Shown piece after piece: positions 1-64,000 of a stretch of DNA of 64,000 bases. The position numbers and the translations under genes were made by a program. The DNA is from Boothiomyces macroporosus (taxonomy: Eukaryota > Chytridiomycota > Chytridiomycetes > Rhizophydiales > Terramycetaceae): contig JADGKB010000008.1 in assembly GCA_027604185.1 (NCBI GenBank), positions 124,001 through 188,000 of the forward strand. Reading direction: 5' to 3'. Each line of letters opens with the position of its first letter. The first letter of the stretch is position 1. The notes below the pieces were generated by a model. That model was not told the origin of the DNA. It saw only the letters and a list, made by a program, of their open reading frames with translations, and made no database searches.

Positions 1-1089
1 TATTTGTAAAGACCCTTCCAGTGTAGCCATGATATACAGAGGATCTATTTTTTGATTATGGAATTGATAGAGGTAATTGAATTTCAAAGATTTCCCAAAT
101 AATCGCATCAACAATACTTTTGACGCATGAATAGACAGATTAGGCAGACTGGGCGTGAACCATTCTGTGCTCGACATAATCTGCAGACTCAGGTGTGCCT
201 TTTGATTAATTGGATTTGCATCTGAGGAACATCCAGGCAAAAATACTCCGTTGTCTTCGTCTTTGATGTTTGACTTGTTCTGAAAGATAAAGAATGTGTC
301 GAAAGAGTACATGAGCCACCAAACAGCTCTGATGCTCTCTTTTTCGTATTCAGAATCAGTCAATAGCTGAATGCCCACTTCTGTGTTGATCGAAAGCCCT
401 TTGGCCATGGATAACGAAGCATTGAAATATGCAAACCCTTCCGCTGGTTTACTCATTCCTGGATTAGCAATCACATACGAAAATAAAGAAATGATAGCTG
501 CGTTAACCCCAATATATTCGCCATTGACGAATCTGAAATCGCACTGGGGATTAAAGGGGTACAGCTTGCTAAATATCGATTGCACAGTGCTACGCGGTCC
601 TCCATATTTCCAATATCAGTGTTGTTCAAAAAGCATCCATGCCCTGAAAACACATATTGAAGAAACTGACTGCTGTTTAATAGTCCCTTCATGTACCCCT
701 GATCAATGAACGAATAGCGGGCTACATCTTCCACTACCATCTGGATTAATCGTGCGTTATTGATATTTGGATTTAATTCTGTTATCCTAGCTATATTTTC
801 TGCTTTTGGCACATGTTCCACAATTTCAAAGGGAAGTGCGTTTGAGGTGCCTGCCGCTAAAACCGCTTCCAATTTCAATAGTCTTGCCTCCAGTTGTTTT
901 TCCACATGAGACTTTACTGTTGGGATCTGTCTGAATGCATCGTAAGAGCATTCAATCTTGGCAGAGACACATCTGGAACATTTTGGTTTCGCTTGATCAC
1001 ACTGCATTAATATATAATTACTTTTTGCTTCTAATATTAGGCTATATTACTTTTTTCGTGCAGGGAATGCAGGTATTTCGTGGTCTCAT
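1..1089 (-). CDS. Zn2Cys6 fungal transcription factor (3' end beyond window)
   Basis: Probable sequence-specific regulator acting in the nucleus. Exons on the minus strand are 1089-1051, 1030-1022, 1001-479 and 458-1; the three introns (1050-1031, 1021-1002, 478-459) are each 20 nt. Joining them gives an N-terminal binuclear zinc cluster, CIPCTKKKQKC followed by CxxxxxxC, CxxC and Cx6C spacing, i.e. the canonical C-x2-C-x6-C-x6-C-x2-C-x6-C. Exon 2 is only 9 nt and supplies KQK between Cys2 and Cys3. Downstream sequence resembles the fungal-specific TF middle homology domain, with an RAVWWLMYSFD-like segment. 343 codons are visible and the gene runs off the left edge. The target genes cannot be told from sequence. 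Confidence 0.85.
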
Positions 1090-1129
1090 TTTTATGGAAA
1101 TGGAAAAAATTTGCCTTCGAAATTACGCT

Positions 1130-4100
1130 TTATTTTTGATACAAAAACTGCGCCAAACCAGCGTTGGAGGCGGCAACGCCTTTGCCTTTGGGTCTGGATG
1201 TCATCTCTGCCAGCTTTTCCGCTACAATATTTTCGCTATCTTCATTTTCTTTTTCTTCGTCAAGCATCTTTTCCAACTCTTCTGTCTTTTCTCGTTCTTC
1301 ACCCATTTCTGGACCGTCATCTACCTTCTGGACAAACTTTTCCATCATCTCTGTACTGTTTTTAGCTGCTTCACTGCTTTCAGGTCTATCAACCTTGCGA
1401 ATCTTGCTGGCAGCTTCACTTGGTTTTTTCACAAATCCTTCCAGAGTGATTTGTTTGCGTTTCTTTGCCTCTGTTTCAACTTTTTCCGCTGCTGGAGGTC
1501 TTCCAAATGGATTCATTGGCTTCTTTGCTCTATCCAAACCAAATGGATTGAGAGGTTTTGGTTTGATCTCTTCGCTGACTGGTTTTAATATGTCATCATT
1601 ATGCTTGGCTTTTGGAATAGGTATTGGCTTGGACTTTGGAATATATGGTTTCTGGATTTCAGGTTCAGGTTCAGGTGCATCCAATGGGAAAGATAGAGAA
1701 GGATGATCATCGAAATCGCGTTGTGGGAACAATTCATAATCAGGTGCTTCAACTCTGATTTTCTTGTGCTTGACGGGAGGTTCAAAATCGTCATCAACAA
1801 GAGTATTTTCAAATCTCGATGATCGAGTATACAATTCTTCAGGTTCTTCCTTTTCTTCGCTCAAACGTTTCTAAATTAATGCTAATTACTTGTTTGATGT
1901 GGTTCATGCGTTCACCCAGGGCTGGCTGTTGATAAAACACAGCGATTTTCATTGCTCCGTCAATACTTTCAATCAGATACAACATATCACATAGATCCAG
2001 CGCTCTTTGGGTCTGCTCATTCTTGCAAGCATTCTAAATTAATAGGATATTACTGCAAGTAGTTGCAACGTAAGTTTATCGATTTTAGCTTCTTCCCCAT
2101 TATTAGTTTCGGTAAAAATCAAACGGGACTGAATAATTTGCTGTTCTAGTTTCACTGTATCATTTTCAGGCTCTAATAGCGGAATGGCTAATGGCAAATC
2201 ATTAATGATTGGTTTTGGAAAGTTAGGATGGGTATTTCCTTTGAGAACAACACATAAAAAGTTTGATTCGGTAACGCCTACTGGCCAGTATTCTTCCACA
2301 CGCTCTTTTTTGAATATCTTTGAATCAAATAATGGTGTCCACATATTACCCGAGTTTAGGAATAACCCACGAAGAACACCTTCGCTATCAAAAGTGCATG
2401 GATATCCGAGTGAAGAGAATCCAACCCATTTTAGCTTAGAGCAGGGAGAAATTGGCAGCATATCCTGCACAACAATTTGATTTGTATTCATATCCAGCAA
2501 AAAGTAAGCTAAACTTTGATTACCATGGAACACTCCGGCATGGTGGTACACACAAAATAGCAAGTCGTTGCCTCCAGACATGCTGACAATTGGTCCGCTA
2601 AGCGATCGAATGCCAACCTGAATACCACTAGTACTAAAGACACGGATATACTGCTGATTGGTTGCAACAACAACCCTGGACATGGTGCAAGCAACCACTT
2701 GCGCACTTTCATCTTTGGGCAATGTAAAGGTCCAATCACTCTTGTTTGCCCAGTTATCAAACGGACGGTAGTAAACCAAAGATGTGAGAGCAGCGGTTGC
2801 TTGCGAAGCAAACACAACACCAGATGGCCCGATACTGCTAAGAGTGTAATTGTTGTAATCAGTAAAGTGGAATGGTCTAATGGAGGAATCGTGGAATTCA
2901 ACATCCATTGTAAATTGGGTGCCAGACTCTATAGCGCAAACTGTACCAACATCGTTAAACACCAAATATTGCCTGTTTTGTTTTAAAGGTGAAGAGTTTG
3001 GCTGAAATGCTTCTTGAATATCATGAGTGGGAAAGCTTAACTGTTCATTAGCAGGCTGGATATTGTATTCCCTTCTCAATTCTTTCAAGGCTTTTTTGCC
3101 CTCACGCTCTTGATATCTAATAACGTCTCTTTCATTTCTAAACTCTTCAGCATAGCCACCGCCATCGTCGTCAACCACAAAATCGTCAACTTCATCCATA
3201 TCCTCGTCTTCTTCAGCCTGATGTTCTATTAGCACATCATTGAATATATCATCTTCAACTCCAAACAATTCATCTTCTGGAATTTTTTCAGGGGTTTTAG
3301 ATGCATGTGGTAAATCAGAAGGTAAAAACTCTTTCCAGTAACCAACATTTCCTTCAACGTCACCCTATAATTAACCAATATTACGAAGAGCAGGTCGTTT
3401 GAAGATGGATGGAAAGTGATACCAGAAATTTTTGCCAAGTTACTCTCCCTATTGTTAGTATTGAGTACTTTTTAACTGGATCAGTGATACTTTGCTGAGG
3501 ATGCCAAATATATAGTAAATTTGCACTTGCACATGCTAAATATAAGCCGTTTGGTGAATATTCCAAAGCAGACAAGATTTCTTGGTGATCGAAACTGTAG
3601 ACACTTTCAAAGGTTTTCGCATTATAAACAGTCACTGAATCAGCTACAACAAACCTTTCTTTTCTTTTGCAACACTGAAATATTCCCCACTAGGATTCCA
3701 TTTCGCAATATCACCCTGATCCAAATTCCCAATATTTTTCCAAGTAGTATGCTCTTTTTTCCAAATCTTTACATCTCTCCCGCAACTAATTAGCTTGTTT
3801 GCATGAAAATCAACACTAGTAACCGCATTTCCATGGTTCAAAGTCTCTTTATAATCTGGTATTTGCGCATTGTATATATAAATTTGAGGTTCACTGGATT
3901 AGCAAGAAATACTCTGATCCAACGGCGATATAGCCTCCATCGTTGATCACTACGCAATTTACTACACCACTTGTCTTTGCAATGGTTTTGACAAACTTTA
4001 GTGGTCTGACTTTGAACAAACTGACTGTCATTTCACTTCCAAATACTAGAAAATTGTCGCTGACTGATAGACAAGATACTGATTGCGAATGAGTATTTCC

Positions 4101-4278: not shown

Positions 4279-4317
4279 TTTGCAAAGTTGAATTCGGACA
4301 TTTTTCTGGACTTTAAA

Positions 4318-4536: not shown

Positions 4537-5695
4537 TTATCGGTTATATTTCTGACAATACTTTTGGTGAGGTTTGAGATGCTGTTCAAGCATGTGCAAT
4601 CCACAACACGTAGAAACAATCACTTTATGTGCGATAACAATCCGCCTGTCTGTTTCAGACCAATCTATCGAATCAATTTTCTTTTGTCCAGCTAATTTAG
4701 CAGCCCTAGGTGCTGGTTTGATTGGAATAATCTTTCCTCCACATTCAGTAGAGTGTTTATGAAACCATTTATCGTTTGGCCCAGGTCTAGTGTTATTTTT
4801 ACGGCCGATATGGCCCATGTACGGCTTCAAGTTTGAACATGCGCCTTGTTAGTGGTAATTTACCTAGACACTTCCACTTGTATTCTGGATTAGGCAATTC
4901 GGGAAATGAGTGATCATGGGTAACATTGCTATGAATATCTTGATTAAACAGGTTCATCATCTGATCAAATTCCTCACAGTGTTCTCTAGGCTTCCCAAAT
5001 GCCATTGCTAAATAACAATGAATCATCTCGTGAAGCATTATATTTATGCATTCTCTAGGAGACAAGTATTGGCAAAGGCGAGAAGACAGCTTGATAACAC
5101 CGTTTGAATTGGCAGAGTTGCTGGATATGATTCCATCCGACCATTCAAATCCTTTGATTGCGTTATTGAACAGTTCGCGGTTGTATAGCTTGTACTTTGC
5201 ATCAAAATCAAATAGTAAATCTTCATCAGGCAGCAGGGATACGTCCAGAGACTCTATTTCGTGGATATCTTGAGATGAAAATTGCTGCAGCGCTTTTATT
5301 GCGGAGTCTTTATCATTGATTGACTTTGATTCGCTTTCTTTGCTTTGTCCTTGATTTGTAGGCAGTTCCATCAGATCATCATCAAGTATCTGTCGTTTGC
5401 TAGGCGATTTCGGTTCATCTACTGATTCTATTGACACAGAATTTACCGGTGATTCCATTTTTCTCTTCCTTAAGGGTGTATCTTCCTCAGAGTCGAAATC
5501 TGCCTTGTCGCTGTAGATTTCCTCCACCATCTCTCTCATTGGTTTCTCACTAACAGAAGGCTGTGAGGATTCTTCAGTAAGTTGTTCATCTTCCATTTCA
5601 GCGAATTCGATAAACTGCTGTTGCAATTCTTTCAACTCTGAACTTGAAATTGGTTTTGAAGAAATGAATTCAATCTCTTCTGGATTACCAATCAT
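4537..5695 (-). CDS. SPRTN: Spartan-like SprT metalloprotease
   Basis: Predicted DNA-dependent zinc metalloprotease that removes DNA-protein crosslinks at replication forks. Exons 5695-4864 and 4844-4537 are separated by a 19-nt intron (4863-4845) and give 379 codons from the ATG at 5695. The N-terminal half is acidic and low-complexity. The SprT domain has the HExxH zinc motif in LHEMIHCYLAMAFG with a downstream GKPREHCEEF. Splicing restores the Spartan zinc-binding segment: KWKCLGAC, then RPGPNDKWFHKHSTECGG, supplying C, C, H and C ligands. No SHP or UBZ motif is obvious. It follows CTF4 on the same strand. The start is uncertain because an open frame with one TGA extends upstream (see 5696-5878). 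Confidence 0.85.
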
Positions 5696-6088: not shown

Positions 6089-8260
6089 ATGGGCGATCGA
6101 AAAAGGAGTCCCAAAAAGAAGGAAGACGATGATGACGATTACGAAGAAGAAATTGAACAAGAACCACCAAAGAGGGGTAGAAAGAAAAGGGTAGACGACA
6201 TGGAAGTTGATCAAGATTTCGAAGATGAAGAAACTCAAGAAGAAGCTGAAGAGGAAGAGGAACCGCCAGAGCCACAAGAGCAACCGAAACGAAAGCGCGG
6301 CAGGCCTCCCATTCCGAAAAAGAAGGGAAGACCGCCAAAGCCAAAGCAATCTACACCGCCGCCTGATGAAGAAACTGACGATGATGAAGTGGATTCAGAT
6401 ATTGATCCAATAGGAGAAACAAAGATTGATAAAGATGGCTATCTTCAAGGTGGTAGAGAATATAGATTCCCAACATTCACTTTACCAAGACATCCTACTC
6501 GATTATACCTCTACTCTCTGGAGGCTTCAAAGCTCTTGGGATTTAGAGATACTTATATATTCTTTTTGCGCAATACAAATGTAAAGAGGGTTAATGGAAC
6601 GGAAGAAGATCGTGAACATTTGCGCAAGTTGGATATCCTTCCTTCTCAATTGAGGAACAGGCCAATTACTTTGATTCGTGCGAGAAATCTGTTTAAAGTG
6701 TTTGGACATAAAGTGGTTCGAAGAGGCAGGCCAATCAAAGATGACTATTTTGTTGGTGATCAGCAAGAAACTGCAGAGGATGATACTAAAATGGACGAAG
6801 ATGAGCAGTCTTATGGTATTAATAGTTTAATATAGGCATATATGATTATAGTAAAACATCTGGCGGAGATCGTGGACCATTCAGACGACATGATTTCTCT
6901 ATTGCCGGATTTTTGAAACCTAAACATGAAGTTGAGCAATTTGAACCATTAGCAATCCCTGCTGAGTTGGAACAAGATCAATGGATGCTGAAATGTGCTC
7001 TTTCGGCAGCAGATTTCAACCAAAGATTAAACAGAACCAGACCTACATCATTTCTGGATTTGCACACTAATATTGAACAAGTTCCAAAGATTACTCAACC
7101 TATTCGAGTATTGGTCGAAAGTAATGTTGATTACACTGGAAATGAACTCAAAATAGAAAAGGAAATCAATTGCAGGCCATATGAACCTCAAGCGCAGTGG
7201 CAAGTAGTCGGAAACAGCTTCGAACCTTCCAAATATCCGTTAGCAATAATGAAAGATCAACACCAAGATGCCGTCCCTCTGTAATTATTTTTAACGATAG
7301 ATATCAAAATAGGTTTAGTGAGACGGATTCTCCATACTATAATAACGAAAATATTAATGACAAAAGGATCAGACAGTACGATCAACCTCCAAATTTATAT
7401 GGCGTTCAACCTTTCATTATGGCATCTCAGCCTCCACAAATCTTGTCTGTTCGTAAAAAAGGAAGACCAAGAAAAGTGAAATTTGATCAACCAGGAGATG
7501 AAGAAGCGTGTGCACATTGTCATGAACTATCGTGTGCAACTACTCTAAAAGGTGTTCCTGGAACACTAATGCTAACTTGTGACAAATGCAAAACCAATCA
7601 TCACCCAAGCTGTATGGAATTTGAGGATCCAGTATTGATATCAAAGTGTTTCACTTATCCTTGGCTATGTAGCAACTGCAAGACTTGTACAAAATGTAAT
7701 ACTGCGGATAATGATGACAAATTGCTATTTTGCGATGTATGTGATCGTGGACTACATACCTATTGTAACGATCCACCATTGCAGAGACTACCAGAAGGTA
7801 ATTTTAGTTAATCTAGGTGCCTGGTTGTGTAAATTGTGTGCTGAATGCCAATCCTGCAAGACTACAAAGCCTGGACCAACTGAATGGAGACATGTGGTCA
7901 TTCCGCAAAAAGGAGATGTTGGACAATTCTTGGCTACATTCTGTCCAAGTTGCTACAATGACTTTCAACAAGATCGTTTCTGTCCAATATGTCTTAAAGT
8001 ATACTCTCGAGATGCAGATGATTTGGCAATGGTCTGTTGCGATTCCTGTGATAGGTAACTTTGCTTAATGTAGATGGATTCATGTTGGATGTGACGATGA
8101 ACTGACTGAAAAAGAATATCAACGACTAGTAGAACAAGAAGAACCACAATTCACTTGCATATTATGTGATCCAATCAGAGTTACCAGAGCGCTTGAAAGC
8201 ACCGGTGCCAAAGAAGTTGAGTACAAAGGTCAAATCTTGATTACACCTTCACTAAAATAA
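6089..8260 (+). CDS. SWI/SNF-RSC subunit: Rsc7/Swp82-type domain fused to PHD fingers
   Basis: Predicted chromatin-remodelling subunit. Five exons (introns 6816-6835, 7281-7300, 7798-7816, 8055-8073; 19-20 nt) encode 697 codons. The first ~120 residues are acidic and basic low-complexity with AT-hook-like KRGRPP and KGRPP motifs. Residues ~125-350 match the chromatin-remodelling subunit domain shared by yeast Rsc7/Npl6 and Swp82 (GREYRFPTFTLPRHPTRLYLYS; GPFRRHDFSIAGF). A further GRPRK hook precedes a C-terminal array of Cys/His PHD-type zinc fingers (CAHCHEL, CDKCKTNHH, CDVCDRGLHTYCNDPP, CPICLKVY, CCDSCDRWIHVGC). In yeast the Rsc7 domain and such PHD arrays are separate; metazoan PHF10/DPF-type BAF45 subunits combine related parts. 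Domain calls are firm; the complex is inferred. Confidence 0.82.
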
Positions 8261-8292: not shown

Positions 8293-9471
8293 TCAAATGT
8301 AATCAAAAGGATTCAAGCTGCCTGTGTTACTCTTTTCTTGGTGCGGATTCTTTTCAACATGCAACGATTCACCATCTGGAGTTTTCGAGTAACTAGCATG
8401 AACATCCATGTCTTTTTTGCCTTCCACTGAATCTCATTAGAAAAGGGTACCTTTACCAGACACTTCTTTTGCATCTTGCATTACCTTGCCTGAATCACTG
8501 CGTTTCAAATCAGAAGGAGAGATATTGGGACTTGAATCATTGATTGCATCTGAACTATGAATGGCCTTTTCTTTTGCTTCTCCGACAGCATCGCTAGTTT
8601 CATTTTTTACTTGTTGCGAAATATCGCTAGCCTTTTCCTTGGTTTTATCGTATCCTTCCGATAGTTGGGTCTTGGCATCGTCAGCTATTTCGTTTGACTT
8701 TTCTTTGGATTGATCATAGCCTTCCTTCACTTGGTCTTTGACATCACCAGCAACTTGCCCAGTTTTTTCTTTGGCTGCTTGGTAGTTTTCGTTGATCTTG
8801 TTTATTTTATCGTTTGTCCTTTCTTTTGCAGAGTCAAACATACTGCCAACATAGCCTTTGGCTGATTGATAGCCTTCCTTGATATTTTGTGCTGTTTCAC
8901 CAGCTTTTTCTTTAAGGGTTTTGTATACTGTTTGTTCATTTTCGTTGTTCAAGTTTCTGTTTGGATCAGCTTCCTTGGAAAGTGAATTATTGTCTGTTTT
9001 TTCGGTGGACTGTTCATGTGCATGGGATTTCATATCAGGCAAATAGTTGAGTGTGCTGGTGATTGACCCAATGGTAGATTTTGTACTTTCGCCTTCTTCC
9101 TTCTGGTTCCTGGCATCTTCAAATGTAGTACCAGAATACTTTGTGTCTTGATTTAAAGTGGTATCCATTGGTAGGTTTCCGTGCGGCTCCATTTTATGCT
9201 CTTGTTCAGACTTTGGCATGTAACTAAGAGGGTTGATTATGTGCACAATTGAGCTGGCAGTAGATTCGGTTTTATCCAAAGCTGCTTTGAGTCCTTTGTT
9301 TACTTTAGAGCCATAGTCTTGATTCAAGCCAGGATCTTGCTTTACTTGCTTTGGATCTGATGAGATAGACGAATTGCTTTGATTGCTTTTGATTTCTTGA
9401 GTTTGGTTTGGGATATCTTCACGCGGTAGCTGCTTTGAATCGTTCCCAGCAGGTTGCTTGTCAGAATTCAT
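8293..9471 (-). CDS. LEA-like hydrophilic protein A (NPLxY-tail family)
   Basis: Not assigned to a named orthologue. Exon 1 is 9471-8451; an 18-nt intron (8450-8433) leads to a last exon that reads to a TGA at 8293, total 386 aa. A 24-nt version of the intron is also in frame. The middle consists of repeated amphipathic stretches of the LEA group-3 / apolipophorin kind (KEKAGETAQNIKEGYQSAKG, VKEGYDQSKEKSNEIADDAK, LSEGYDKTKEKASDISQQ), very rich in K, E, A, D and lacking hydrophobic segments. It holds NPLSYMP and TLNYLP internally and ends SLNPFDYI, the motif shared with the two upstream neighbours. LEA-type proteins usually protect membranes or proteins during desiccation; that role is inference here. 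Confidence 0.75.
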
Positions 9472-9625
9472 TGATATTCTTTTGGATACGTTGAATCTTT
9501 TTTCACTTGCTTAAATAACTACACGCTGCATGAAATTATGTGAGTTGCATTGGTGATTCTTTTGGAAGCAGGTTAAGTGTTGGTAGAGCAAATTAAAAAA
9601 GAGCATGTCAGCAAATACGCCTTAT

Positions 9626-10130
9626 TTATTTTGAGCCAGGCAAATAGTTGAGCGGATTTAATGCACTTAACCCTGAGTTATTGACTGTTACCAGTTGGAT
9701 GCTCCTTATCCGCAGGATTGTCGGAGGAGTCTGAATTTCCAGTATCAGTAGTTCCTGAATTTGGACCAGTTTTAGATTGGTTTGCATTATCCGCTATAGA
9801 GTCTAAAGTCAATTTTTCTTTACCCTTGGCTGATTGAACTTTTTCATGAACATGATGCATTCCTGAGTAAGTAAGAATAACCTTGCTTTAACCAATCGCA
9901 CTGTTGTTTAGCACCTTCCTTTGCTTTGTTGTACTCTTCAGACATTTTACTTTGCATGTCGTCTGTTCTGGATTGGCGATTGTCTTGCGATTGAGGAGTT
10001 ACTGCATGAGCGATAGAGTCTTGGATTAGCTATTTGTACCTTTTGCATCTTTTGCCTTGTTCTTTACAGATTCCATTCCATCATGCATATAGTCTCCCAT
10101 AGACTTTTTATCAGATTGATCGTGTTGCAT
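9626..10130 (-). CDS. LEA-like hydrophilic protein B (NPLxY-tail family)
   Basis: Four small exons (10130-10040, 10019-9882, 9862-9692, 9672-9626) with introns of 20, 19 and 19 nt give exactly 149 codons including stop. The protein is hydrophilic: an N-terminal MGDYMHDGMESVKNKAKDAK segment, then SEEYNKAKEGAKQQ and EKVQSAKGKEKLTLD helices like those in protein A, then a Ser/Thr/Asn/Asp-rich tract. It ends ALNPLNYLPGSK, the shared tail motif. It lies between proteins A and C on the same strand, so the three probably arose by tandem duplication. No enzyme domain, signal peptide or membrane segment is visible. Confidence 0.72.
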
Positions 10131-10236
10131 TGTCGTAATCCACCATCAAATGCCACTATTTATATCATTGCAATGCATAAATATACCTAATTGAGGCATA
10201 ATCGAACGTAAATTCATGCAAATGCTTTATTTTCCA

Positions 10237-11074
10237 TTATTTTTGAAAAGGAAGATAAGCTAGGGGATTAATGGACCCAGTAGAAGTAGAATCTACATTA
10301 CATCAATTATACTATCAGCTTTTTCCTCTTTGGCAATGTCAAAGTGAGATCCGGTGTATTTTGTGGAAGGAATTGGGAGCTGTCTTGAATTAATGTCCTG
10401 ATTATTCTCTGGTTCATTGGATGAGTTGTCTTTGTGTTCACTGGACGTATCCTTTGGTTGCGTGCCAGACAAGTTTTCTGGCTCAGTTTCGCCAAGAGTG
10501 CCTTTTTTAACTAATACAAACTTGGTACTGTGGTATGCGTGCCTATATCTCGACGTGCATCCTCTAATTTAGTTAGAGGGTCGAGAATGTCATTTGAGAG
10601 GGATCATTTCGCATTTCTGGTTAGGAATTCCATACCACTTGGCTCATCTTTGAGTGTGCCCGAGTAAATAGGTGTTGGGTTTGCCAAAGCAGATTGCTTG
10701 GTTGATAGTTCATCTTCTACTGATAAATTCGTTTGAGTAGATGCTGGTTTTTCGCTTTCAGGATTCAATACGCCTGCTCCAATTAGTAACATCTGACCTT
10801 TGATTGGCTTGCTCTTCACATCAAAAGGTATGGTTCCTTCACTGATAGAAGCTGGTTTTGGTGCGGAATCGTCCATTAAGCCAGCCAAGTCCCCAAGTGA
10901 TGCATTGGTATTTCCAGGTTCGCTTTGCGCCTTCAACGAATTATTGGTCATGTCTTATTAGTAACAGCTACCATCAGATCGATTCGGTTGGATATCCGGA
11001 GTGGTTTCTTGAACAGTGGTAGTACTCTTGGAATCGCTATTGGGCTTCTTCCTGATTTCTGACATCATACCCAT
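10237..11074 (-). CDS. LEA-like hydrophilic protein C (NPLxY-tail family), internal structure uncertain
   Basis: Third member of the tandem set. Exon 1 starts at ATG 11074 (MGMMSEIRKKPNSDS); an 18-nt intron (10971-10954) follows. Two 20-nt introns near the end (10521-10502, 10312-10293) join to a tail GSINP LAYLPFQK ending with TAA at 10239-10237, matching proteins A and B. In the middle, an in-frame TGA after LTRNAK must be bypassed. A 72-nt GT-AG intron (10635-10564) does this and gives 235 aa with the motif YSGTLKDEPSEDAR, close to YSGTTFEDAR in protein A. A 19-nt intron from the same donor (10635-10617) instead hits a stop soon after. RNA evidence is needed to decide. Function unknown. 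Confidence 0.6.
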
Positions 11075-33638: not shown

Positions 33639-33676
33639 AACCTGTGGCAAACCAAACTTGCTTTTTTTAAATAAAC

Positions 33677-34765: not shown

Positions 34766-35087
34766 TAAAGCACTTTCATTTTATGACATTTTTGAACCAT
34801 TGCCCTGAAATCACTAGCGGTATATCCGTCGATTCGTGTGGGCTCTGTTCGTACAAAAACAGACACATAGCCACCAAATAACTTAAAACCTTTGTACTTA
34901 TTGTGTGACCTAATTTGGCCAACAGCTTTTTTTGTGTTCATCCTATTCGGAAGCCACACCCGCCAGCCGTTGCAATTTCAAGAAAAATCAAACTCTTTAA
35001 TTCGGTAAGGTGAGTAGCTATTGCCAAACGTATTTGCCTATCAGTACAATATATATCTTCCTTCATTTCTACAAAAATTTCACAAAA
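34766..35087. other. Intergenic region inside the glycosyltransferase array
   Basis: About 320 bp between copies 2 and 3. No coding signal on either strand and no RNA gene seen; AT-rich sequence leads into the copy 3 start. Confidence 0.5.
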
Positions 35088-36173: not shown

Positions 36174-36487
36174 TATATTTACTTTCAAGTACTGTTGTTG
36201 CGTTTACCAATTGAGGAACACAAGGACTTGTGTGACGGCTTCGGTAAAATTTTTGGTGGGCTAGTCTTTTTAAGTCACAATATAGAAATGCAGTTATTGA
36301 GCATTAAATTGTTTAATGGAGTATAATTGTTAATAGGGGATAGTTTACACTACCAAAGAGCTTAACAGTGCTCCGACACTTTGCTAGTGGTGTGATTTAA
36401 TACTTAACAACTTTCTTCCCGGCTTGTGACCGTTAAATGCATTGCCACATTCCAATTATAAAAAGAGAGGATAAATGTAACTGAGCA
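36174..36487 (+). promoter_or_regulatory. Upstream region of glycosyltransferase 4 with CCAAT/TATA
   Basis: 314 bp between copies 3 and 4 without coding signal. TCCAATTATAAAAAG (36451-36465) combines a CCAAT box with a TATA box, 31 nt before the ATG at 36488. This implies a very short leader. Confidence 0.55.
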
Positions 36488-47653: not shown

Positions 47654-47676
47654 TTTTATTTTTTATTGCAACTGTT

Positions 47677-53263: not shown

Positions 53264-56200
53264 TTATTGCTCTTGTGGTACCAGCACCTTTGCTAACTCA
53301 ACCAATGGCTCAATTTGAGTGTTGCGACGAGGAAAGAATGAAAGAAATGAAACAAACGGTGCAATCTAGAGTTAGAAAAATATTACCCAAAAGTTATTGG
53401 GTGTGATGAAAGATGGCAGCAATCCTCTTGATGCGGTGAACAGCGATCTAGTATTAAATTCAATTACTTGAATAACAATGATCCCAGATGTAAATATCTA
53501 TAGGCAGCTTGCTCCCGCGTCCCATAGTGTATAAGCTCATCAACTATGTATCGGTACAAGAAAAATGCATCAGAATCAATATCATTTAGAAGGCCTGGCA
53601 AAGTTGCTATTTGCCGGAGAAGACGAATACAGTGACTTTCAAGAATATGGAAATGGTTCAGGGAATCAGAGGCAAACTAATTTAGAAATAAATTACTTGG
53701 AATGTCTTCAAGTGGCCAAAACTTAATCTGACGTATAGTCGCTGTCTCTCATGTGGCTTCTTTTTGTTATATAGTACAAAGTGATCCATGATGTATTTTT
53801 GCTAGGTTACGTTAAAAATACCTTTCGCAGTTGCTCAATATGCTTATTGATATTATTTAGCAACGGTATTATTCTATACTTTTTAGTCGCCTTTGGCTCT
53901 AGAGTGCATGTGATTAATCCTTGGTGGCCATGGGAAAATGAAAGCTTTGAAAGACTGCTTGTGTTTGCTGTTGGCGTATCTTCATCAGAATCCGAGGAAT
54001 CGTCATTGTTGCGTTTTTTACCAGATAGGTAATGCAGTACCCTTGACGTAAATGTGTTGTAACTTCGGTGATGCGGGCTTGTTGCTTTTGCAGCTGGCCC
54101 AGGATTATGCAACTCAATGTCAAAATATATCGAATCGCATATAATGTGAAACTCCAAAGTCTTGTCCGAACTATTAGTGATTGCCAATATGTCATTATCA
54201 CATTGAATTTGTTGCGGAGTCAGCGCTTCGATTTCGTTGTTTGCTTTCTTTGATACAGCACACGAAAAAACAAAGTCATTTGGCGAAACGGTCATCTGAA
54301 GCGGAGTACATAAAGCTTTTAATGGGATTACTTTTTGATAGTCCTTAACAAGCCTGCAATTCACATAAATTTCAATATCCTTGTGTTCTACATAGTCTTC
54401 TAGCTGGGCACCAATTTTTGAAGATGGCATCAAGAGTAGCCTGAGAAATACTTGACAGCTAGACCCTCCTTCAATTCTAATTGTCGAAAAAAGTTTCGCC
54501 CCAGATCTAGAGAGGGAGAAAATCAATTCGCTTTCGTCATCTCTGGGAAGATTACTAGTTACAGAAAACTCTAGTGGTGTAAGTTCATGGTTGAATATCA
54601 CCAAACTCTTTGTAACATAAAATGCCCCGAAAGAGAGCATCCCCATGTCAATCGTTGAGCTTTTGGATTCAATCGCGTGCGTATAAACCTGGAAAACCTT
54701 GTTGTTATTCAAATCAGCTTTGTACGGTGCTGCTACTTCGGTTTGGGTAGTGTTGGTAGAGCGTTTCAAATTTTGCTTTGCAACAACCTCCATTGTAACC
54801 CGAACAAATTTTGTGTCCATATAGTTATCCAAATTTTGGATCATAAGATAAGCATAGTACGTTCCTCTAAGAGCAACCATCAAACTTAATGTAATCTGTT
54901 GTGAAGATGCGGAAAATGAGTTTGACCGCGACATTTCCAATAACCCTTCATATCTGTTGCACACTATCCAATCAGAGTCTTTTTCATTAACTGGGCAAAT
55001 CCGATACGATGCTTGAGAGCCCGTGGTGAGTTCTATGGTGATTTTTTTAGATAATGCGGTGGGCGACAAATCCTGTTGGCCAAGATCAAGTTCGTAAAAG
55101 CCTTCAAATTTGCCACTGGTGATATCATAGAGCTTCTTGCATCCCTTGATTTCAAGCACTGGTGGAACTGGGGCACTATAGGATATAGCAGATTCTTGTT
55201 TCAAAGAAAAGTTTTGAATTTCTGGTGATAGCGTTAATTCATCTCGAACAATAGGAATATCTTCAGTACCCCTGTTCTGATATACATCAGCCATCACTCG
55301 CGAAGTTCTAGTTTCAAATAGCTTTGTTGGGACATCGTCGGTGTAATCGGTAGTACTTTGCAACATTCCAGTGTTGTCTTCCAACAACTTTATCGAAACA
55401 GTCTGCCCTTTCTTTGACAAAGAATTCTTGTCAATGAAATGCACTTTGATGTCGTCGGAAATCCCGTAAATCTTGGAATCCCTCAAAGAGAACGTAATCG
55501 TAATTTGACCACCTGCTTCAACTTGAAAGGTCCCATCCTCCTTCAGAGGGGATATTTCGATAATGTTTTCTGCTGCAGAAGCAAATTCTATGGGATATTC
55601 TATGGCAACTTTCAAGTCAAGGGTGTAATTATTTGACAAATTTGTTACACTGATATTTTGCTTCTGGATCGTCAAGGCAGGCTGTGTGGATTGCGGCTTT
55701 TTATCGTCATCACTGTCTGAAAGGACAATTGTTTTAAAAGTAAGCGAGCTCTCTGATAGGGTAAATGTTGGCCCTTCCACAAAGACACCCCGCAAAGCGA
55801 CTGATTCTACAAGCTTCAAAGTGTTCTCCTTGTCTCCATCTATGCTCTGTTTAACCTTTGAAGTCAGCCAAAACGTTCCCAAAGTTACTCCTGCAGGATT
55901 GGTCAAGTACGAAGAAGCTATCATCCCTTGTGACAAACGAATGGCATCTTTTGCGGCGATTCTAATTTTCACTTCAATTGAGCCTTTAGAAGGTAATGAT
56001 ACGCTTGTTCCAATGGGCGAATTTGAATTGCGGGAGAGTATTTCAGTAGAAATCAAACTTTCAACATCAGGCGTAAGGGTACAGCCAATATCAAACTTAA
56101 CATCTTGATCTGCTACATTTGTAATGACAAACCAATTATCGCAAGGCAAAGCTGACGGAGAGGAAGGAAAAATCAGTGGGGGAAGCTGCAATTCTCCAGA

Positions 56201-59200
56201 GTTTAATCGGTCAAATTTCAACTCGAACTGGGTCATAAAATACTTGAGCGTCACAGTCAAATCATTGGATGGATTGAAGATGTTTTTAATCGTGATTGTT
56301 CCAGATTGAGCTCCAGATATTCTTTCTTGCACTTGTCTTGGATTAAACTGGCATTCAATAACTTGATGACATCCAGGTTCGATCTTTCTCTTGGAAGGAA
56401 TATTTTCATTTTCATTACCAATTGAAGTGATTTCAACATAATCCGGAATTTCAAAATCATACAAATACGTAATTTCGGATGGGTTGTGGATTTTGAATTG
56501 AAATTTTACTTCTTGCCACATATTGATGTGGCCCACTTTTCCCAAATCAATGATGTTCGTTTCAATTGACCCAACGGACTGACAGTATCCTACAGACAAC
56601 TCGAAAGCTGCAACGTCTACCTGCTTATCAACATTCTTAAACACCAAGATCCCGTCCTGTATAAACCTTTTACCCAAATTAACTGTGCTAGCGTTATTTT
56701 CATCCAACAGCATGTTAAGCGATGTAACCGATATTACTGCGATTGCTTTTTCCTTTGGCTGTAACAGCAATGCGGAGCCAAGTACAGCCAATTTGTTGTT
56801 CACTCTAGAGTTTTCCACTTCGGAAGTATTTTGGATCAAATTGTCCACCACGAATCCTGATCCAACATTAATCATCCAGCGAAAATTCAGGCCAATGTCA
56901 CTGTATGCCTGCAAGTGTATGAGTTCATCAGTATTGTTTTTTAACTCTACACTGTTTTCGTACAGTGGCATGCTGTCTGTCCTCGATTTCTTCTGCAGTC
57001 TCAAATAACTGGCACCGCCATCCTGAACAACCGACGAGTAAACATTTTCCCATCGTATTATATCCATCGTATCGTCTTCTACTCTTTTTTGATTCAATAC
57101 TGAACAGGACACGAAGGTTGGATTACAAAATGCTCTGACAGAGACTTCAAAGTTTTGATTCAAATTGTTCATATTCTTGCAAACAATTGATTCGTTGTAA
57201 AAGCCGTATTTTGCACACATTAAGGAAAATGTAACACATTCGCCCTGAATATTGCTTCCAGTTTGTGATGAGGACTCGACTGGACCGATACACCCCTTGA
57301 AATCTTCAATTATAATTCCACTGGAGGGCTGAAGCTGAAATTGCAAAGGCATTGATGACGTAAGATTATACACCCAGAATTTTCCTCTAACAAGCTGGCC
57401 TTTTGAACACTTTGAACCAAAATTAATAACTTTGTCGGAAACTGCAAAAAACGATTGTCCTATCGCGGCATTGAATTTTAGAGTATGGGTGAACACATTC
57501 ACAAAATTATCTGGATTGGATACCACTTTGGAAGAGGCTGGATAGCTGTCGAGTTCCTTGATATTATCTTTCACAAAGATCATAAATCTAATTCCTCCAA
57601 TCAAGTTCCTGCAGTCTATTTGAGACGCCAGCTTTGCATCTGTTTGAATGTTGAACGGTTTTTCCAACTTTTTCAATAGCGAAGCGCTTCCGGTGCTAAC
57701 TAATCCTGGTTGTAAAGCTATATAAACAATAACTTTTTCATTCCCATTTAAAGTAATCGGATTCGAAGAAAGGGAATTTTCCAACAAGTTATCGGCAAAT
57801 ATATAACACTGCTGGCTCAAGTTTGAAATGGCTGAGAGAACTATGGGGTTATCGGTAATATTTTCTACTTCAATTGGAACTACTTTGGCAAATCGTTTTT
57901 GATAATCTATATAGCAATAACCAAAATCAAGCTCGTAATTTCCTTGTTTAACATCTGCAAGGCCAAAATGATTGATTCTTTCATGAGAATTGAAGTTTAG
58001 TCTGAGATAGGACGATAATGTAGCATAATAGATATACGTTATTGATATCTTTTGTGATTTCCTGGAGTCTTGCACATGAATAGTCGCTTTCAGTCTGCCC
58101 AAGCTTCGTGGTATTAGAGTAAGTTCAATTTTTCTTGTTTCATTTGCCTTCAAAATTCCTGCCTGTTTCTTTGCGTAAAGAGTTGCTGCCAAATCTCTTG
58201 GAATATCCAAGATAAACCGTAAATCCCGATCAGATTGATTTATCAATACAAAATAGCAATGTTTCTTTTCTCCAATTTCCAATTTCCCTAAATCAACGAG
58301 TTGCATTTCAACAGTGAATTTGGGGGTTGCAACTTCAGGAATGAAATTTTTGATTGGGGATTGAGGGAGGTTTTGGCTCGTCGTAGTACTTGGCATGGAA
58401 CTAATTACCGGCGTATCAAATTGGAAGCCATTATCAGTCTCGCTTTTGCGACTAACATCTTGTTCTTCCTGCAAGACTCGTAGGTATGCTTGCTGGTCGT
58501 AACAGACTGTCGACTTCACAAGGACTCTTTTAACAATATCCGTATTTTTCTGTTCATGAATGTATATCCTTGCAGTGCATATTTCGCTATCTATCGACCT
58601 TGTGTCTTCGGTTCCAACAGCTGAAAGGGATGGATTTGAAGGCAGAGAAGAACTTTCAAACTTTGAATAGCTAGTGTCACTTTGAAAGTCTGGGGAACCT
58701 CTAATGGATATTCTACTAATGCGAGATGGCTTGAAAAAGACTTTGACTGTTTTCACACATCTTGGGCCAATCGGAAATATTATCGAGCAGTCCGTGGTTT
58801 TTACTTTTGGTACTGTATTAGAAGTAATTGCTAGCAAATCCTTTGCACTTGTATGGGCAGATTTGGTAGTATTGAGCGCAACAGGTGAGGAATCTTCCTG
58901 CTTTTCATTTTCCGATTTTGCCACCTTCCCTGCTCGTAGTAGCTTCAGCTCTTCCATAATTTTATCGGCTTTATCTTGACGGCCCTTTCGCACAGCAATT
59001 TTGTGTTTTTGCTCCAATTGCTCAATTCTCTCTTCCATTTCTTTCGAAAGCAAAACTTTTTGATTTCCATCCTCATCTTCGCCGGAACTGTCGATTGAAA
59101 ACCAAATCTCTCCACTGCATTGTTCAAAGACTAATTCCTGGGGATCGACTTTAACTTCGAAAATTCTCGTGTGCTTGGTGCTAGTATTTGAAATCACAAT

Positions 59201-62200
59201 ATTTTGCACATTTTGACACACTTGGTCGATGAGACATGGGCCAAATGAGAGCAAGAGATTTTCGATAAAGAAATTGGCAGGTTGCCGGATATTTGCTTTT
59301 ACTATCAGAGTTTGGTTATTGTCGGGATTTTGGATATTCTCGATTGTTAGGTTTTCTTGGAATAGTCCGGCTAGCGAAGGATCAAACATGAATTCGACTT
59401 CGCGCTTTCCATATCCACGAATAACACCGTATTTCCCTTCTGAAAATATTAAATCTCCTGAAGCTATTGATCCAGATTTTCGGATACCGTATATGAGAGG
59501 CACTTCTGATTTGTTTCTAATTACAATCTTCTTGGTTCTCCTTTCAGTTTTGTCCATATTACCAAAATTGATGTGCTTTTGTCCCAGCTCCATCAACGAT
59601 TTGGCAACCAAGGATCTGACCATCATTTCTCTAATTGGGATTTTATCAGCATTTTCCTTTTTCAACAAATAATCAAACTGCATAGCTTTAATAGTCCTGT
59701 CGAATTCAATCATTTTGAAGAATACACGGGCATCGTATTTTCTTGCTTTGCCCTATATATTATCAACAAGGTACCTGAAGCGATGAAAGATTTTGATTAT
59801 TACTTTTGAACACAAGGATAATTGTCAGCTGCTTTTGAGGACCAACTGTTACCCGCGATAAAGGAACTAGTTGAGCATCTCGAATGCAGTCATCCAACTC
59901 TCTTCGAATTGTCTGCTGGGTCTTTACGTATTTCTCTTCAGATTCATAATTAGTAAAGTGCGGACTGATCATTCCGGTTTCTTTTTCTAGGAGTGGTAGA
60001 AGAGTATCCATTGCAAACTTTGTTGTTTCGGCATTTTCCACTTTTTCATCAGGCTTGCATAACAAGTTGTCTGACAATGAGACATCTTCATATGTACCTG
60101 AAACATCAGAAACATCGTCATCATTTTGAGCAGAATTTTTCTTTGTAAAATTGGATCGTAATGATCGCAGTGGTACTGTATAAGTATTCTTGCGTCGACT
60201 GGGTGATCTCGGTGGTTCCACTTTATTTGAAGACGCCAAATCCAAGTAATCTGGAGATGCAACCGCTTGAGTGATATCCCCCATATTTCTCCTTGATTTT
60301 AATGTTACCGAGCCAATTGTTATACCAGAAGTTGATTGTGCAGCTTTCAGCGAGTTGACTTTTGATTCGGTAGAAGGCCGGTTTAATTTTCTACGATCTT
60401 CAATAGATTCTAGCAATTTCTCCTTTCTTTCTGAATTTCTTGGAAGCACAGTAGGGTTATACTCTGCCACGCCATATATTCCAATGTCTCCTGGCATCGA
60501 ATTTGAAAGCTCTAAAACCAAATCTTGATCAGAAATATTTTCAATGATGAATGTACGGACAACTGGCGAATTGATTAATGCTGTGCCAAAATCAATAAAA
60601 TTTGTTGCTGCTGGAGTCAAAATATTATAGAATAACGAGTGAAAAGTAACTTTTTGCTGGTCAATGTTTGTCGAGTGTACTTGCACAATCTGGTCATTAT
60701 CAGGGTTAAAAAGGTTAGCAACAGTGATATCCTTTTTGTAATCTGGGTTGACTTTTCTAGGATAGATATCAATTTTAACTTCCACAGATTGCTTTGCAGG
60801 TATTACTATTTCTCCCCTGAATGAACTAAGAACCTTTGATACATATCGAAGTTCTATTAAGGTAGGCAAATCAGACATGTTACGCACAATCAACGGAGCC
60901 GATTTGAGCGTGCTGACATTGGTATCACCGAAATTTATCGTAGAAGGAGACACTTCAATTGCTGATGTACACACTTTGCTGACACACTGAATTATATTCT
61001 TTTCGGAGTTGTTCTGTTGTCCAGGTTTGCAAGAAGATAATGTCACCCTAAAATTTCTTTTTGACAGTCTACATGATCGATAGTCTGAAGTAATTGGATC
61101 TCTTTGGGGCAAATAGCAAACTTCAATGTGCTTCTCTATCCCTGGTCGCAAAATCAATTCTTCGATCCTTGTGATTTCTTCTCCTAGTATTCCAACATCC
61201 TTGTTGTATGGAAGGTCAAAGCTTGAAAATGAATCGTAGTCTTCAGACATTGTTCTAGATACAGAGTCATGATTTGAACGAAGAGCTTCAACGATATTTG
61301 GTAGTGGAACTATGTCAAAGATATAATACCGTCTTGATCTTCGCCGTTTGGATATCCTGGTGAGGAACCGACCGAGCTAGAAGAGCTATGCGTACGTGTT
61401 ATCGACAGTTCACTATGGGTCCTGGATACCCCAGATATTTCAGTCAGGCGATCGTGCAAAAGCTTTTCTGGTGGTTCCAGTAGACCGTCCGAAATGTCAA
61501 ATGAATCTCTATGTAATGGTTCAGACATTTGTTTAGAGTGCTGTCTAGATCTAATCGGCTCGTATGTTTGCACTTCTTCGCTCTTTAATTGAAATACCAC
61601 ATCCGGAGAGTCACTGGAAAATCCAATTTCCAACGGGGATTCTGACACATTCCGCAAGATAATAAATTTCTTTTTCATTAATCCTGCACAGCAATCTCCA
61701 AAATCCAGCATATTTCCTGTACTGATGATTAGCTTTTCTTCTCTCATCACTGATCGCACTATGGCATGAACGTGAGTTTGGACAGTATTACTGGCATCAT
61801 TCTGGTTTTCAATCTGTAATTCATAGTTGAATTCACCAACGTCGGTAGGTTTAAATGAAACTCGAATTCTTTTTGGGGTATAAGCTGCAAGAGGTGAAAA
61901 ATCTAGAGGCTCGCCAGTATCGTAATCAGTGAACTTGAGCCAGTTTTTATGATTCTTGTTTGATAAATCAACTGATGTTAGTGTCCAGAAAAGCATGATT
62001 TCGGATCGGTTGTGAACTGTGAAATCTTTGAAATACGTTCCGCCAACGACACAGTCATCGAAAATCAACCCTGTAGAAGAAATATCCGTTGTGAATACAC
62101 TCTTGCAGATCCTTGATTTGAACTTTGTAGTCACCTTTTGTAAAATTCAGTTTACCTGAAAATCAGGAGGGATGACTACATCACCGTCAATATTCTTTGC

Positions 62201-62725
62201 GGGATCGGTATTGGTACGTCCAATCTTTGGTGATATGATCGGCTTTTCCAGAATGGCTTTTGAATCCTGCTTTACTAGCCCTAGTTTGTCCTTTTTGAAA
62301 CAGAAAAAGAACAGCAATCCGTTTATCTCAATAAAGTCGTGCGTCGCATCCTCCTTGAAAATAGTTGGGGTATTTGGTTCCGTAGTTGGTAAAAAGGCAA
62401 TGATGATTTTCTGAGTTTGAAATGGCTCCAAATCAATTTGATCAATATGCCCTACAAAGTTGAATAACTGGTTAAAGCCAGTGTTGGTCCTGGCCATACA
62501 ATACTCGACCGTATTCGTATTCTCAACTTGGAGTTGGTCTGGAAGATTTTCATTTGATTTTTGGAAGGCGATTTTTGTCAACTGAGGTTAATCATTGATT
62601 ACGTTTGAACGGAGCTTTACTGTGAGTTTTAAATCCGTAGTATTTTTAATCTCGAATCTAGTAAGCGAATGTAATCCGTTATCGTACACTTGATCCAATA
62701 TAATCTTTCCTGTTACTTCAATCAT
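53264..62725 (-). CDS. Giant ASH-domain flagellar protein (HYDIN/CFAP47-like), 3,098 aa
   Basis: Nine exons from ATG 62725; introns 62602-62582, 62155-62135, 61329-61310, 59774-59753, 53821-53802, 53696-53677, 53467-53448 and 53386-53366 (20-22 nt). Total coding length is an exact multiple of three. Nearly the whole protein is repeated ASH/MSP-type beta domains, each with a phrase like LDFGDCCAGLMKKKFIILRN, INFGDTNVSTLKSAPLIVRN, VDLGKLEIGEKKHCYFVLIN or INFGSKCSKGQLVRGKFWVY. A coiled-coil segment (MEERIEQLEQKHKIAVRKG) interrupts one. After an apparent stop at 53807, a 20-nt intron leads to four short exons encoding a ~155-residue non-ASH helical C-terminus (HFVLYNKKKPHERQRLYVRL ... GLLNDIDSDAFFLYRYIVDE). 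Size suits CFAP47 or a short HYDIN, but I see no CH domain. Central-pair role inferred. Confidence 0.8.
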
Positions 62726-62918
62726 GTAATTTGTTGGTTCGTCGGGATTTTAATTTTTGAAAAAAATCACAAGGGAGAAGGGGGAAACCGAAATTCATTA
62801 GAATTTGCCGATTTTATAAACATATTGAGTGTATGTCTTTCCGATGGTAGAATCACACCCATTTTGTGTATTCCATTGTTGAAAGTGTCAATTGTTGACA
62901 CCAGGAAAATTCTTTGTG

Positions 62919-64000
62919 ATGAAGCAAGGAATGTAAGTAAAACACTAATCTGAGATCGAAAGAGGAAAGGGAAGAGACAGAGAGGATCGAGGCGTTCCTG
63001 AAAGAAGAGAAGAAGAAGTATCTGGCACTCTCTGCTGAGCCAAAGCTTTTGATTTTGGGGACTTCAGACTCTGGAAAATCAACGTTGCTAAAGCAACTGA
63101 AAATACTACATGGAAAAGGGTTCACCGAAGAAGAGCGATCCTCTGCAAAGCTGGAAATAAAAAAAGCCGTACTCAGTGCTTGCAACGCGCTGCTCAATGA
63201 GTGTGACGATCAATTGCAACAGGTTAGCATTCACTAATGCAGAATTATTTGGACCTTAGTTTTTATTGCACAAGCTTTATTGATTTGAATGAGCCATTTA
63301 CAAACTACGCGATTCGAAATATCCTGCAAATGTGGAAGGAACCACAGGTCATTGAAAAGTATAATCTATTGGTCGATAAGCTAATTCCTAGAACGACCGA
63401 AAGGTATTTGCATCTAATGTAGATTCATTGAAGAGGTGGAGAGGATTGGGGCTAGGGATTACCATCCAACAAACAATGATATTCTATTACTACGTACAGT
63501 TACGCAAACGGTATCAGATACAGTTTTTGAATTTTCCAAAGTTCGAATTCATTTTTACGATGTGAGTGGGCTACAGCACCACAGAAAACAATGGATAAGT
63601 TATTTTGAAGATGTGACAGCCATCTTGTTTGTAGTTGCTTTATCCTCATACGACCAAACGCTGATAGAGGATCCTTCTATAAACCGCATGGCGGATGCAA
63701 TTTCGCTCTTTGATCAAATCTCGAATCACCCGCTACTTGTCAAACCTGATATCATTCTATTCTTCAACAAAAAGGACATTTACGAAAAGAAAATACTAAA
63801 GTCGAATATTGTTAATTATTTCCCAGAGTATAAAGGTAAATGATATTAATGAAAGGAAAAGCGGGAAGTTTTTCACAAGGATATAGCTTCTTTGTAACAC
63901 ATTTCTAACAATAGAAAAAAACATTTATTGCCATACCTAAAGCTCAAAAGAAGACGCTCTATGTTCATCTTACCTGCTGTACCGACACGGAAACCATGAA
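62919..64000 (+). CDS. Atypical heterotrimeric G-protein alpha subunit (3' end beyond window)
   Basis: Six exons are visible; introns 62933-62954 (22 nt), 63223-63242 (20), 63404-63422 (19), 63836-63855 (20) and 63894-63914 (21). About 326 residues are present and the last exon runs off the edge after LTCCTDTETM, the TCAT guanine-specificity loop. P-loop LGTSDSGKSTLLKQLKILHG departs from GAGESGKST. Switch I keeps the catalytic Arg and Thr (LLLRTVTQTVSDT). Switch II reads DVSGLQHHRKQW against the usual DVGGQRSERKKW, so the catalytic Gln is Leu (codon 63571-63573). NKKD is intact. The N-terminus MKQGISKEERE lacks Gly2, so no N-myristoylation. Probably a GTPase-impaired G-alpha. Confidence 0.88.

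Follow-up and report, generated by a model that had tools for sequence, protein, structure and literature searches.

Near-uniform introns of about 20 nucleotides predicted in the chytrid Boothiomyces macroporosus, with a diverged Isy1 N-terminus as a candidate spliceosomal adaptation

The stretch of Boothiomyces macroporosus DNA analyzed in the current study (contig JADGKB010000008.1 of assembly GCA_027604185.1, positions 124,001 to 188,000; 64,000 nucleotides [nt], hereafter the window) carries predicted introns that are almost uniformly about 20 nt long. We consider it highly probable (roughly 0.88) that these are ordinary U2-type introns, shrunk to a compact unit of 19 to 21 nt and removed by the spliceosome, in most genes of this Boothiomyces-like chytrid. 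Their ends, their branch motif, and the U1, U2, and U6 RNAs and core spliceosomal proteins encoded in the same genome mark them, at the level of sequence, as U2-type spliceosomal introns, and we infer from the same features that the spliceosome removes them from RNA.

The length preference is visible without any gene model. A census of the motif GTA...YTAAY N1-5 AG on both strands of the window found 19, 28, and 12 matches at 19, 20, and 21 nt, respectively, where simulations gave about two each, and the total for 18 to 22 nt was 69, compared with a mean of 9.85 and a maximum of 17 in 40 first-order Markov simulations. In a 264-kilobase (kb) sample, i.e., the window and a further 200 kb drawn by position, not at random, from nine other contigs, the motif occurred 221 times at 18 to 22 nt (mean of 48.4 and maximum of 57 in 10 simulations), with an excess at 19, 20, and 21 nt. 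A reversed-sequence census was rejected as a control for its composition, which is unlike that of the real sequence; simulated sequences and scrambled splice signals were used instead. The gene finder was made for this analysis and combines a fourth-order codon-position model with donor and branch/acceptor matrices. Its length-neutral version, which permits introns of 12 to 150 nt with no preferred length and imposes a GT or GC donor and an AG acceptor, placed 52 of 78 window introns at 18 to 22 nt, 71 of 103 once trained on more DNA, and 254 of 391 in the 264 kb. When A and T were swapped in the splice signals, the same program returned 18 of 349 introns in this size class. The scrambled run gave 308 calls of 26 to 150 nt and the real run 129, which puts most of the long calls at noise level. 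A flat gene finder without a splice model yielded 34 introns and was set aside as too noisy; it gave a small peak near 20 nt, and its long calls often enclosed a tiny intron.

The length-informed model gave 34 gene models with 102 introns in the window, 93 of which are tiny, i.e., 18 to 22 nt long (two of 18, 24 of 19, 41 of 20, 20 of 21, and six of 22 nt). An earlier note on this DNA, made from the letters alone, had claimed that nearly all introns measure 18 to 22 nt, which the census and both versions of the gene finder bear out, and its tally of about 88 introns was a fair count. Its statement that all but about four fall in this range was too strict, since nine window introns lie outside and a 73-nt intron in the gene of ribosomal protein eS6 is genuine. 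The wider tabulation that it had suggested, carried out on the 264-kb sample, agreed with the window: 354 of 385 introns in 136 gene models are tiny (5, 87, 154, 84, and 24 introns of 18, 19, 20, 21, and 22 nt, respectively), at least one tiny intron is present in 113 of the 136 models, and the density is 1.75 per kb of coding sequence.

Genome-wide numbers for the assembly (15,203,306 bases, 216 contigs) rest on the 264 kb and on one consensus pattern, GTAATTN{0,30}TAATNTAG, which matched 439 times in the whole assembly versus 63 times for the reversed pattern. Among 100 consensus matches listed, some of which are copies within duplicated segments, 88 measured 19 to 22 nt (52, 27, 5, and 4, respectively), and the other 12 were scattered between 14 and 44 nt. 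Identical intron matches are paired at constant spacing on contigs C2 (42,596 bases apart) and C10 (53,656 bases apart), and identical stretches of 3,111 bases surround the Cwc25 gene on contigs C49 and C100, which suggests duplicated segments or uncollapsed haplotypes. Intron-like matches of 23 to 29 nt were somewhat rarer than other lengths in the 264-kb sample, possibly reflecting selection against near-miss introns. An in-frame stop is present in 48 of 53 introns of 21 nt; this excess was left out as evidence because a stop-free intron whose length is a multiple of three is readable as exon, so that detection is biased.

The anatomy of the tiny introns is as uniform as their length. Among the 354 introns of the 264-kb sample, the donor is GT in 348 and GC in six, ends that the gene finder imposes; position +3 is A in 318, and position +5 is T in 170, A in 74, C in 61, and G in 49. 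The predominance of GTA starts noted earlier was confirmed in the window (GTA in 82 of 93 tiny introns, GTT in nine, and GCA in two). Acceptors read TAG (225), CAG (80), AAG (44), or GAG (5). A YTNAY-like branch motif, which counts toward the model's score and is partly favored in this way, was found in 352 of the 354. The branch A inferred from it lies at +14 (143 introns) or +15 (159), i.e., in 302 of the 352, and is separated from the AG by 3 nt (165) or 4 nt (128), i.e., in 293. The length-neutral set behaves alike, with the branch A at +14 or +15 in 221 of 244 introns and a gap of 3 or 4 nt in 212. The earlier note had thus rightly recognized motifs of the type CTAAT, CTAAC, or TTAAT before the AG; the spacing of 3 to 6 nt that it gave was too wide, as the motif usually ends 2 or 3 nt before the AG, and the polypyrimidine space that it postulated finds almost no room in a gap of mostly 3 to 4 nt. 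The AT content of the tiny introns is 0.70, and complementarity to U1 across positions -3 to +6 averages 5.4 of 9.

Independent evidence for the intron boundaries comes from protein homology, in particular from a RasGAP/IQGAP-like gene on the minus strand (positions 50514 to 52955), which was aligned with eight homologues and matches the Pfam families RasGAP and RasGAP_C once its eight introns of 20 to 22 nt are spliced out. In a deletion scan, each intron was examined with the other seven removed: deletions of every length between 0 and 45 nt, beginning no more than 9 nt from the predicted donor (874 per site), were scored against a profile of 18 homologues (P0002 to P0019 of 120 listed; the Boothiomyces protein P0001 was left out), with no GT-AG requirement. 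The scan covered intron 1 (52774 to 52795, 22 nt), intron 2 (52619 to 52639, 21 nt), intron 3 (52353 to 52372, 20 nt), intron 4 (51900 to 51920, 21 nt), intron 5 (51570 to 51590, 21 nt), intron 6 (51444 to 51464, 21 nt), intron 7 (51242 to 51261, 20 nt), and intron 8 (50737 to 50758, 22 nt). The top-scoring length equaled the predicted length at all eight, and the predicted GT-AG position was best or tied at seven; the exception was intron 1, where shifting the deletion upstream by 2 nt raised the score by 1.4 bits.

For three further products, alignments with solved structures run through the places interrupted by tiny introns. The uracil-DNA glycosylase (UNG) gene (39834 to 40672, plus strand) is interrupted at 39999 to 40017, 40184 to 40202, and 40311 to 40329 (19 nt each) and at 40475 to 40494 (20 nt), and its spliced product aligns with uracil-DNA glycosylase structures. 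The fumarylacetoacetase (FAH) gene (38404 to 39735, plus strand) has three 20-nt introns (38485 to 38504, 38625 to 38644, and 39375 to 39394); its PDB alignment, which spans 410 residues, took intron 2 to be 32 nt long, a length since rejected in favor of the 20 nt of the length-informed model, which adds four residues resembling the mammalian HVF..ETLN stretch. The HAS1-type DEAD-box helicase gene (45447 to 47168, minus strand), with introns at 46746 to 46765, 46408 to 46427, and 46251 to 46270 (20 nt each) and at 46068 to 46088 (21 nt), encodes a product aligning with the HAS1 structure over query residues 6 to 470.

Pfam domains are likewise rebuilt by splicing. Removal of a 19-nt intron (4845 to 4863, minus strand) from a Spartan-like protease gene gives SPRTN_ZBD and SprT-like matches; an Rsc7/PHD gene (6089 to 8260, plus strand) with introns of 20, 20, 19, and 19 nt (6816 to 6835, 7281 to 7300, 7798 to 7816, and 8055 to 8073) gives CRC_subunit and PHD; and an acyl-CoA dehydrogenase gene with a 21-nt intron (16347 to 16367, minus strand) gives three Acyl-CoA_dh domains nearly end to end. 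The Zn_clus domain of a Zn2Cys6 gene (140 to 1089, minus strand) is recovered with introns of 20, 20, 19, and 19 nt plus a doubtful 32-nt intron (199 to 230), and the G-alpha domain in a gene running to the window end (62919 to 63999, plus strand), with six predicted introns of 19 to 22 nt and an uncertain 3' part. The rebuilding of conserved motifs reported earlier was therefore reproduced by the Zn_clus, SPRTN_ZBD, G-alpha, and Ribosomal_S6e matches and, for UNG, by structure alignment. That coding lengths become divisible by three also holds in our models, by construction, and hence does not serve as an independent check. Outside the window, the U2AF1 gene, which was located via the human sequence, yields an unbroken protein when spliced by hand at introns of 21 (GC-AG), 19, 19, and 20 nt. 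Splicing genes thus contain tiny introns themselves: four in U2AF1, one in Cwc25 (21 nt), two in Slu7 (20 and 21 nt), and two of 21 nt in Prp18, one of them GC-AG.

With respect to the nine window introns outside the 18- to 22-nt range, an 18-nt alternative exists for the one of 24 nt, and those of 32, 72, 95, 107, 118, 135, and 143 nt are doubtful models. A 104-nt intron assigned to eS6 by the length-informed model was misplaced: the gene (22352 to 23202, plus strand) begins with ATGAAG, and a 73-nt intron (22358 to 22430) follows directly after this second codon. Together with tiny introns at 22496 to 22516 and 22795 to 22816, splicing gives a protein of 244 residues; the Pfam Ribosomal_S6e match was obtained on the model with the wrong first exon. 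The 73-nt intron is a genuine exception to the size rule, and long introns may be preserved in ribosomal protein genes. Its consensus (donor GTAAGA, branch motif TACTAAT) is stronger than that of most tiny introns.

A gene-finding artefact, i.e., a model that prefers short motif-bearing stretches and excises them, would account for the larger share of tiny introns in the length-informed (93 of 102) than in the length-neutral run (71 of 103). It is nevertheless very improbable, given the 18 of 349 introns left after scrambling, the census that works without a gene model, and the deletion scan, in which no GT-AG rule applied and lengths were free between 0 and 45 nt. An equally slight chance is assigned to the segments not being spliced from RNA at all, such as assembly indels, programmed frameshifts, or a ciliate-like DNA elimination in another nuclear stage. 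Many of the segments do break the reading frame or contain stops, as such elements would, but they also have GT and AG at their ends and a fixed spacing of the branch motif, they are found in 113 of 136 gene models, which is far too many for sequencing errors, and the genome encodes U1, U2, U6, and the spliceosomal proteins that were sought.

These comprise Prp8, Slu7, Prp18, SF1, Isy1, Cwc25, and U2AF1; U1, U6, and two U2 genes were also found. Prp8 is well conserved, with a long alignment to solved Prp8 chains, and Slu7 and Prp18 are both above the search cutoff; for Slu7, Prp18, SF1, and U2AF1, the test covered presence and not each functional residue. The U1 RNA (163 nt; 68.8 bits versus an Rfam threshold of 69.5) matches model positions 1 to 166 and has the canonical start AUACUUACCUG. 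Both U2 copies carry GUGUAGUAUC with an intact branch-pairing GUAGUA region; the two genes (contigs C80 and C178) share this region and differ mainly in their 3' part. U6 carries the canonical ACAGAGA. Cwc25 begins with MGGGDLNLKKSWHP, so that its glycine plug (MGGG) is kept. With U1, U2, U6, and Cwc25 unaltered and the other factors present, most of the parts examined give no sign of adaptation. The adapted spliceosome that the earlier note had expected therefore finds no general support, and a single candidate, Isy1, is left for it.

The Isy1 gene (contig C39 locus, positions 1225 to 2104) encodes a protein 98% identical to that of Boothiomyces sp. JEL0838 and has a diverged N-terminus. Homologues typically start with MARN-EKAQSML or similar, and chytrids keeping the element read MARNEEKAQSMLYRFREAQ, compared with LANILKKYDGVDRTRN in the aligned region of this genome. 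In an alignment of 121 rows (our protein plus the best 120 of 375 matches), 81 rows have the N-terminus; across 19 positions, they match the consensus with a median identity of 0.79. Our protein scores 0.16, as do Boothiomyces and Kappamyces, followed by a metagenome protein and Gorgonomyces (0.21 each) and by Globomyces (0.42), in which the region is partly altered. The Globomyces value ties with that of a group sharing another N-terminus (MARSAEKAMAIL; the one named member is a jellyfish), whose core identity is higher. The element is kept in Spizellomyces, Fimicolochytrium, Chytriomyces, and Polychytrium, and Batrachochytrium salamandrivorans retains MLYRFREAQ, at which its annotated protein begins. 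The stretch that replaces SMLYRFREAQ sits in an open frame matched by the Isy1 Pfam model, and within the 3.1-kb locus, the strand of the gene contains no uninterrupted ATG-Ala-Arg-Asn codon string; an intron-split version is possible. The diverged N-terminus is the one clear departure from a canonical machinery and, judged from sequence comparison, a candidate adaptation to tiny introns.

The affected genera are related. In a maximum likelihood tree of the RasGAP protein (window protein plus 20 rows picked from 120 listed matches; midpoint root), the window groups with Boothiomyces (100/100), then Globomyces (100/100), and then Gorgonomyces (100/99), beside a cluster of Polyrhizophydium, Batrachochytrium, and Entophlyctis (100/99). 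We take the chytrids grouping with the window to be Rhizophydiales. Three of the four named genera with an altered Isy1 are thus in one clade with the window; the fourth, Kappamyces, is not in the tree. Identity of the RasGAP protein is 93 to 95% to Boothiomyces sp. JEL0838, 77% to Globomyces pollinis-pini, and 71% to Gorgonomyces.

In the mechanism that we propose, tiny introns would be recognized by intron definition, i.e., as a unit with the donor GTAA(T) at +1, the branch A at +14 or +15 within YTAAY, and the AG 3 to 4 nt further on, and would be removed by a spliceosome with conserved RNA contact sites and with its step-2 factors present. The U1 duplex occupies positions +1 to +6, and U2 forms a duplex at the branch site. 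A donor-to-branch distance of 14 to 15 nt leaves little room for both, so that the two are unlikely to be stably bound at the same time and U1 would need to depart early; the lack of a G at +5 in most introns weakens U1 pairing and fits such an early exit. This quick handoff of U1 is a less certain part of the proposal, and so is the next, in which the tight lariat loop of 14 to 15 nt would be accommodated at branching partly via the lost N-terminal element of Isy1, whose trimming beside the loop would relieve a clash. With similar reserve, the change in Isy1 may be ancestral in this clade. Since the AG lies 3 to 4 nt from the branch point, no scanning would be needed and the choice of AG in step 2 would be trivial; Slu7 and Prp18 are perhaps kept for the sake of long introns, e.g., the one in eS6, which would still depend on them.

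Several observations weigh against our interpretation. Branch points were inferred from a motif, and the gene finder itself uses the branch motif and the GT/GC...AG rule; the gene models come from our own simple program, and splicing was judged from DNA. In the splicing genes, some predicted introns exceed or fall short of the range (SF1, 24 nt; Slu7, 23 nt; Prp8, 17 nt; and Isy1, 46 nt). The low U1 complementarity was measured in this genome alone. U1, U2, U6, and the Cwc25 plug are unaltered, and Slu7, Prp18, SF1, and U2AF1 are present. As to Isy1, the first exon is uncertain (the model inserts a 1-nt exon), Globomyces retains part of the motif (HRFRE), and the protein is less conserved as a whole (core identity of 0.55 versus a median of 0.75).

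It is only a little less than an even bet that real tiny introns are handled by a spliceosome without any adaptation, an ordinary chytrid spliceosome tolerating 20 nt and the change in Isy1 being unrelated drift. The canonical contact sites of the small nuclear RNAs (snRNAs), the intact Cwc25 plug, the presence of the remaining factors, the well-conserved Prp8, and the low core identity of Isy1 all fit this explanation. The loss at the N-terminus is, however, out of proportion to the core: Trichodelitschia has the same core identity of 0.55 yet an N-terminal identity of 0.79, compared with 0.16 here. Moreover, the same element is described as "strikingly non-conserved" in Stentor, while elsewhere it contacts the intron in the active site (PMC9505925). 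Just a handful of factors were examined here, and another one (Yju2, SF3b, Prp16/Prp22, SR proteins, or a lineage-specific protein) could be the decisive adaptation with Isy1 as a bystander, which we regard as unlikely. A broader interpretation, namely, that the clade of Boothiomyces, Terramyces, Globomyces, Gorgonomyces, and Kappamyces evolved near-uniform 20-nt introns independently, enabled by the loss at the Isy1 N-terminus, is offered as a tentative and rather doubtful proposal. Tiny introns were found in the genome of the window, their occurrence in the rest of the clade is a prediction, and the Isy1 comparison covers the four genera other than Terramyces.

Among known short-intron systems, the ciliate Paramecium has abundant short introns of about 20 to 35 nt with GTA...TAG ends; the ends and the abundance are alike, but its introns are longer and broader in length than those found here. 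The nucleomorph of Bigelowiella natans, a relic nucleus of 373 kb, has 865 introns of 18 to 21 nt and shrunken U1 and U5 RNAs (PMC6461891). Its narrow length range is nearly identical to ours (330 of the 385 introns predicted in the 264 kb measure 18 to 21 nt, and 24 more measure 22 nt), introns are numerous in both (about 3 per kb of coding sequence versus 1.75), and both keep the U6 ACAGAGA. In contrast to the nucleomorph, where U1 is shrunken and no donor motif is identifiable, the 15.2-Mb fungal nuclear assembly has a full-model-length U1 and a GTAAT donor. Stentor coeruleus has introns of 15 to 16 nt, and SF1 and U2AF1 were found there, whereas Slu7, Prp18, and SR proteins were undetected (PMC9505925). 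The near-constant length, AT richness, fixed position of the branch A, short gap to the AG, and presence of snRNAs, SF1, and U2AF1 are shared, and the Isy1 N-terminus is diverged in both, with the caveat of our uncertain first exon. The branch A is at position 10 in Stentor but at 14 to 15 here, and Slu7, Prp18, and the Cwc25 plug MGGG, undetected or lost in the ciliate, are present in the chytrid. Mikrocytos mackini has a similarly narrow size range of 16 to 17 nt (PMC10245619); it is a reduced intracellular parasite with 224 annotated introns, compared with 354 predicted in 264 kb of chytrid DNA.

Within the fungi, a mean intron length of 63 nt in Cryptococcus neoformans is called "relatively short" in an article whose density table includes two Chytridiomycota (PMC8476143). 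Typical fungal introns belong to the same spliceosome type and are about three times longer than those described here. In the available text on a related Rhizophydium genome, introns appear only as a gene prediction setting (PMC13391722). No earlier description of near-uniform introns of about 20 nt in a fungus was found in the portion of the open-access literature covered, subscription papers and preprints being outside its scope.

Annotation of the relatives appears to be affected by the tiny introns. The database RasGAP protein of JEL0838 (P0001) is garbled from intron 1 to intron 2, where much of its difference from the window protein falls, and lacks FLY near intron 7. The Terramyces UNG (P0135, the only one among the 120 matches listed) stops a few residues beyond the place of intron 3, and no Pfam domain is listed for it; its last residues would fit a read-through into the tiny intron. 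In two close relatives, public gene models are thus garbled or cut at tiny introns, and comparative genomics of the group could be distorted by such errors.

With respect to the remainder of the window, tandem, related glycosyltransferase-like genes ending in VLYDGPPM occupy positions 32570 to 37596, and the one at 35088 to 36173 matches Pfam Gly_transf_sug. Two very long predicted proteins of 3,098 and 1,774 amino acids (53264 to 62725 and 27004 to 32386, respectively) look, we presume, like flagellar HYDIN/CFAP-type proteins, which would fit a zoospore-forming fungus. Three adjacent low-complexity proteins (8293 to 11074), all with NP(L/F)xY(L/I) near the C-terminus, are perhaps a stress protein family. 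The GC content of the window is about 0.39, and neither tRNA genes (ARAGORN) nor Rfam matches at the gathering threshold were found in it.

Such chytrids bear strain numbers, can probably be cultured, and have fairly close, better-studied relatives, so that, unlike in nucleomorphs, the lower size limit of splicing is open to experiment. With some factors retained and others altered, possible requirements of tiny introns (perhaps the change in Isy1) are set apart from mere losses seen elsewhere (Slu7, Prp18, and the size of U1). If the interpretation for the whole clade is true, Slu7, Prp18, the Cwc25 plug, and normal snRNA contact sites were all kept on the way to tiny introns, and Isy1 would be a gauge of the minimum lariat size.

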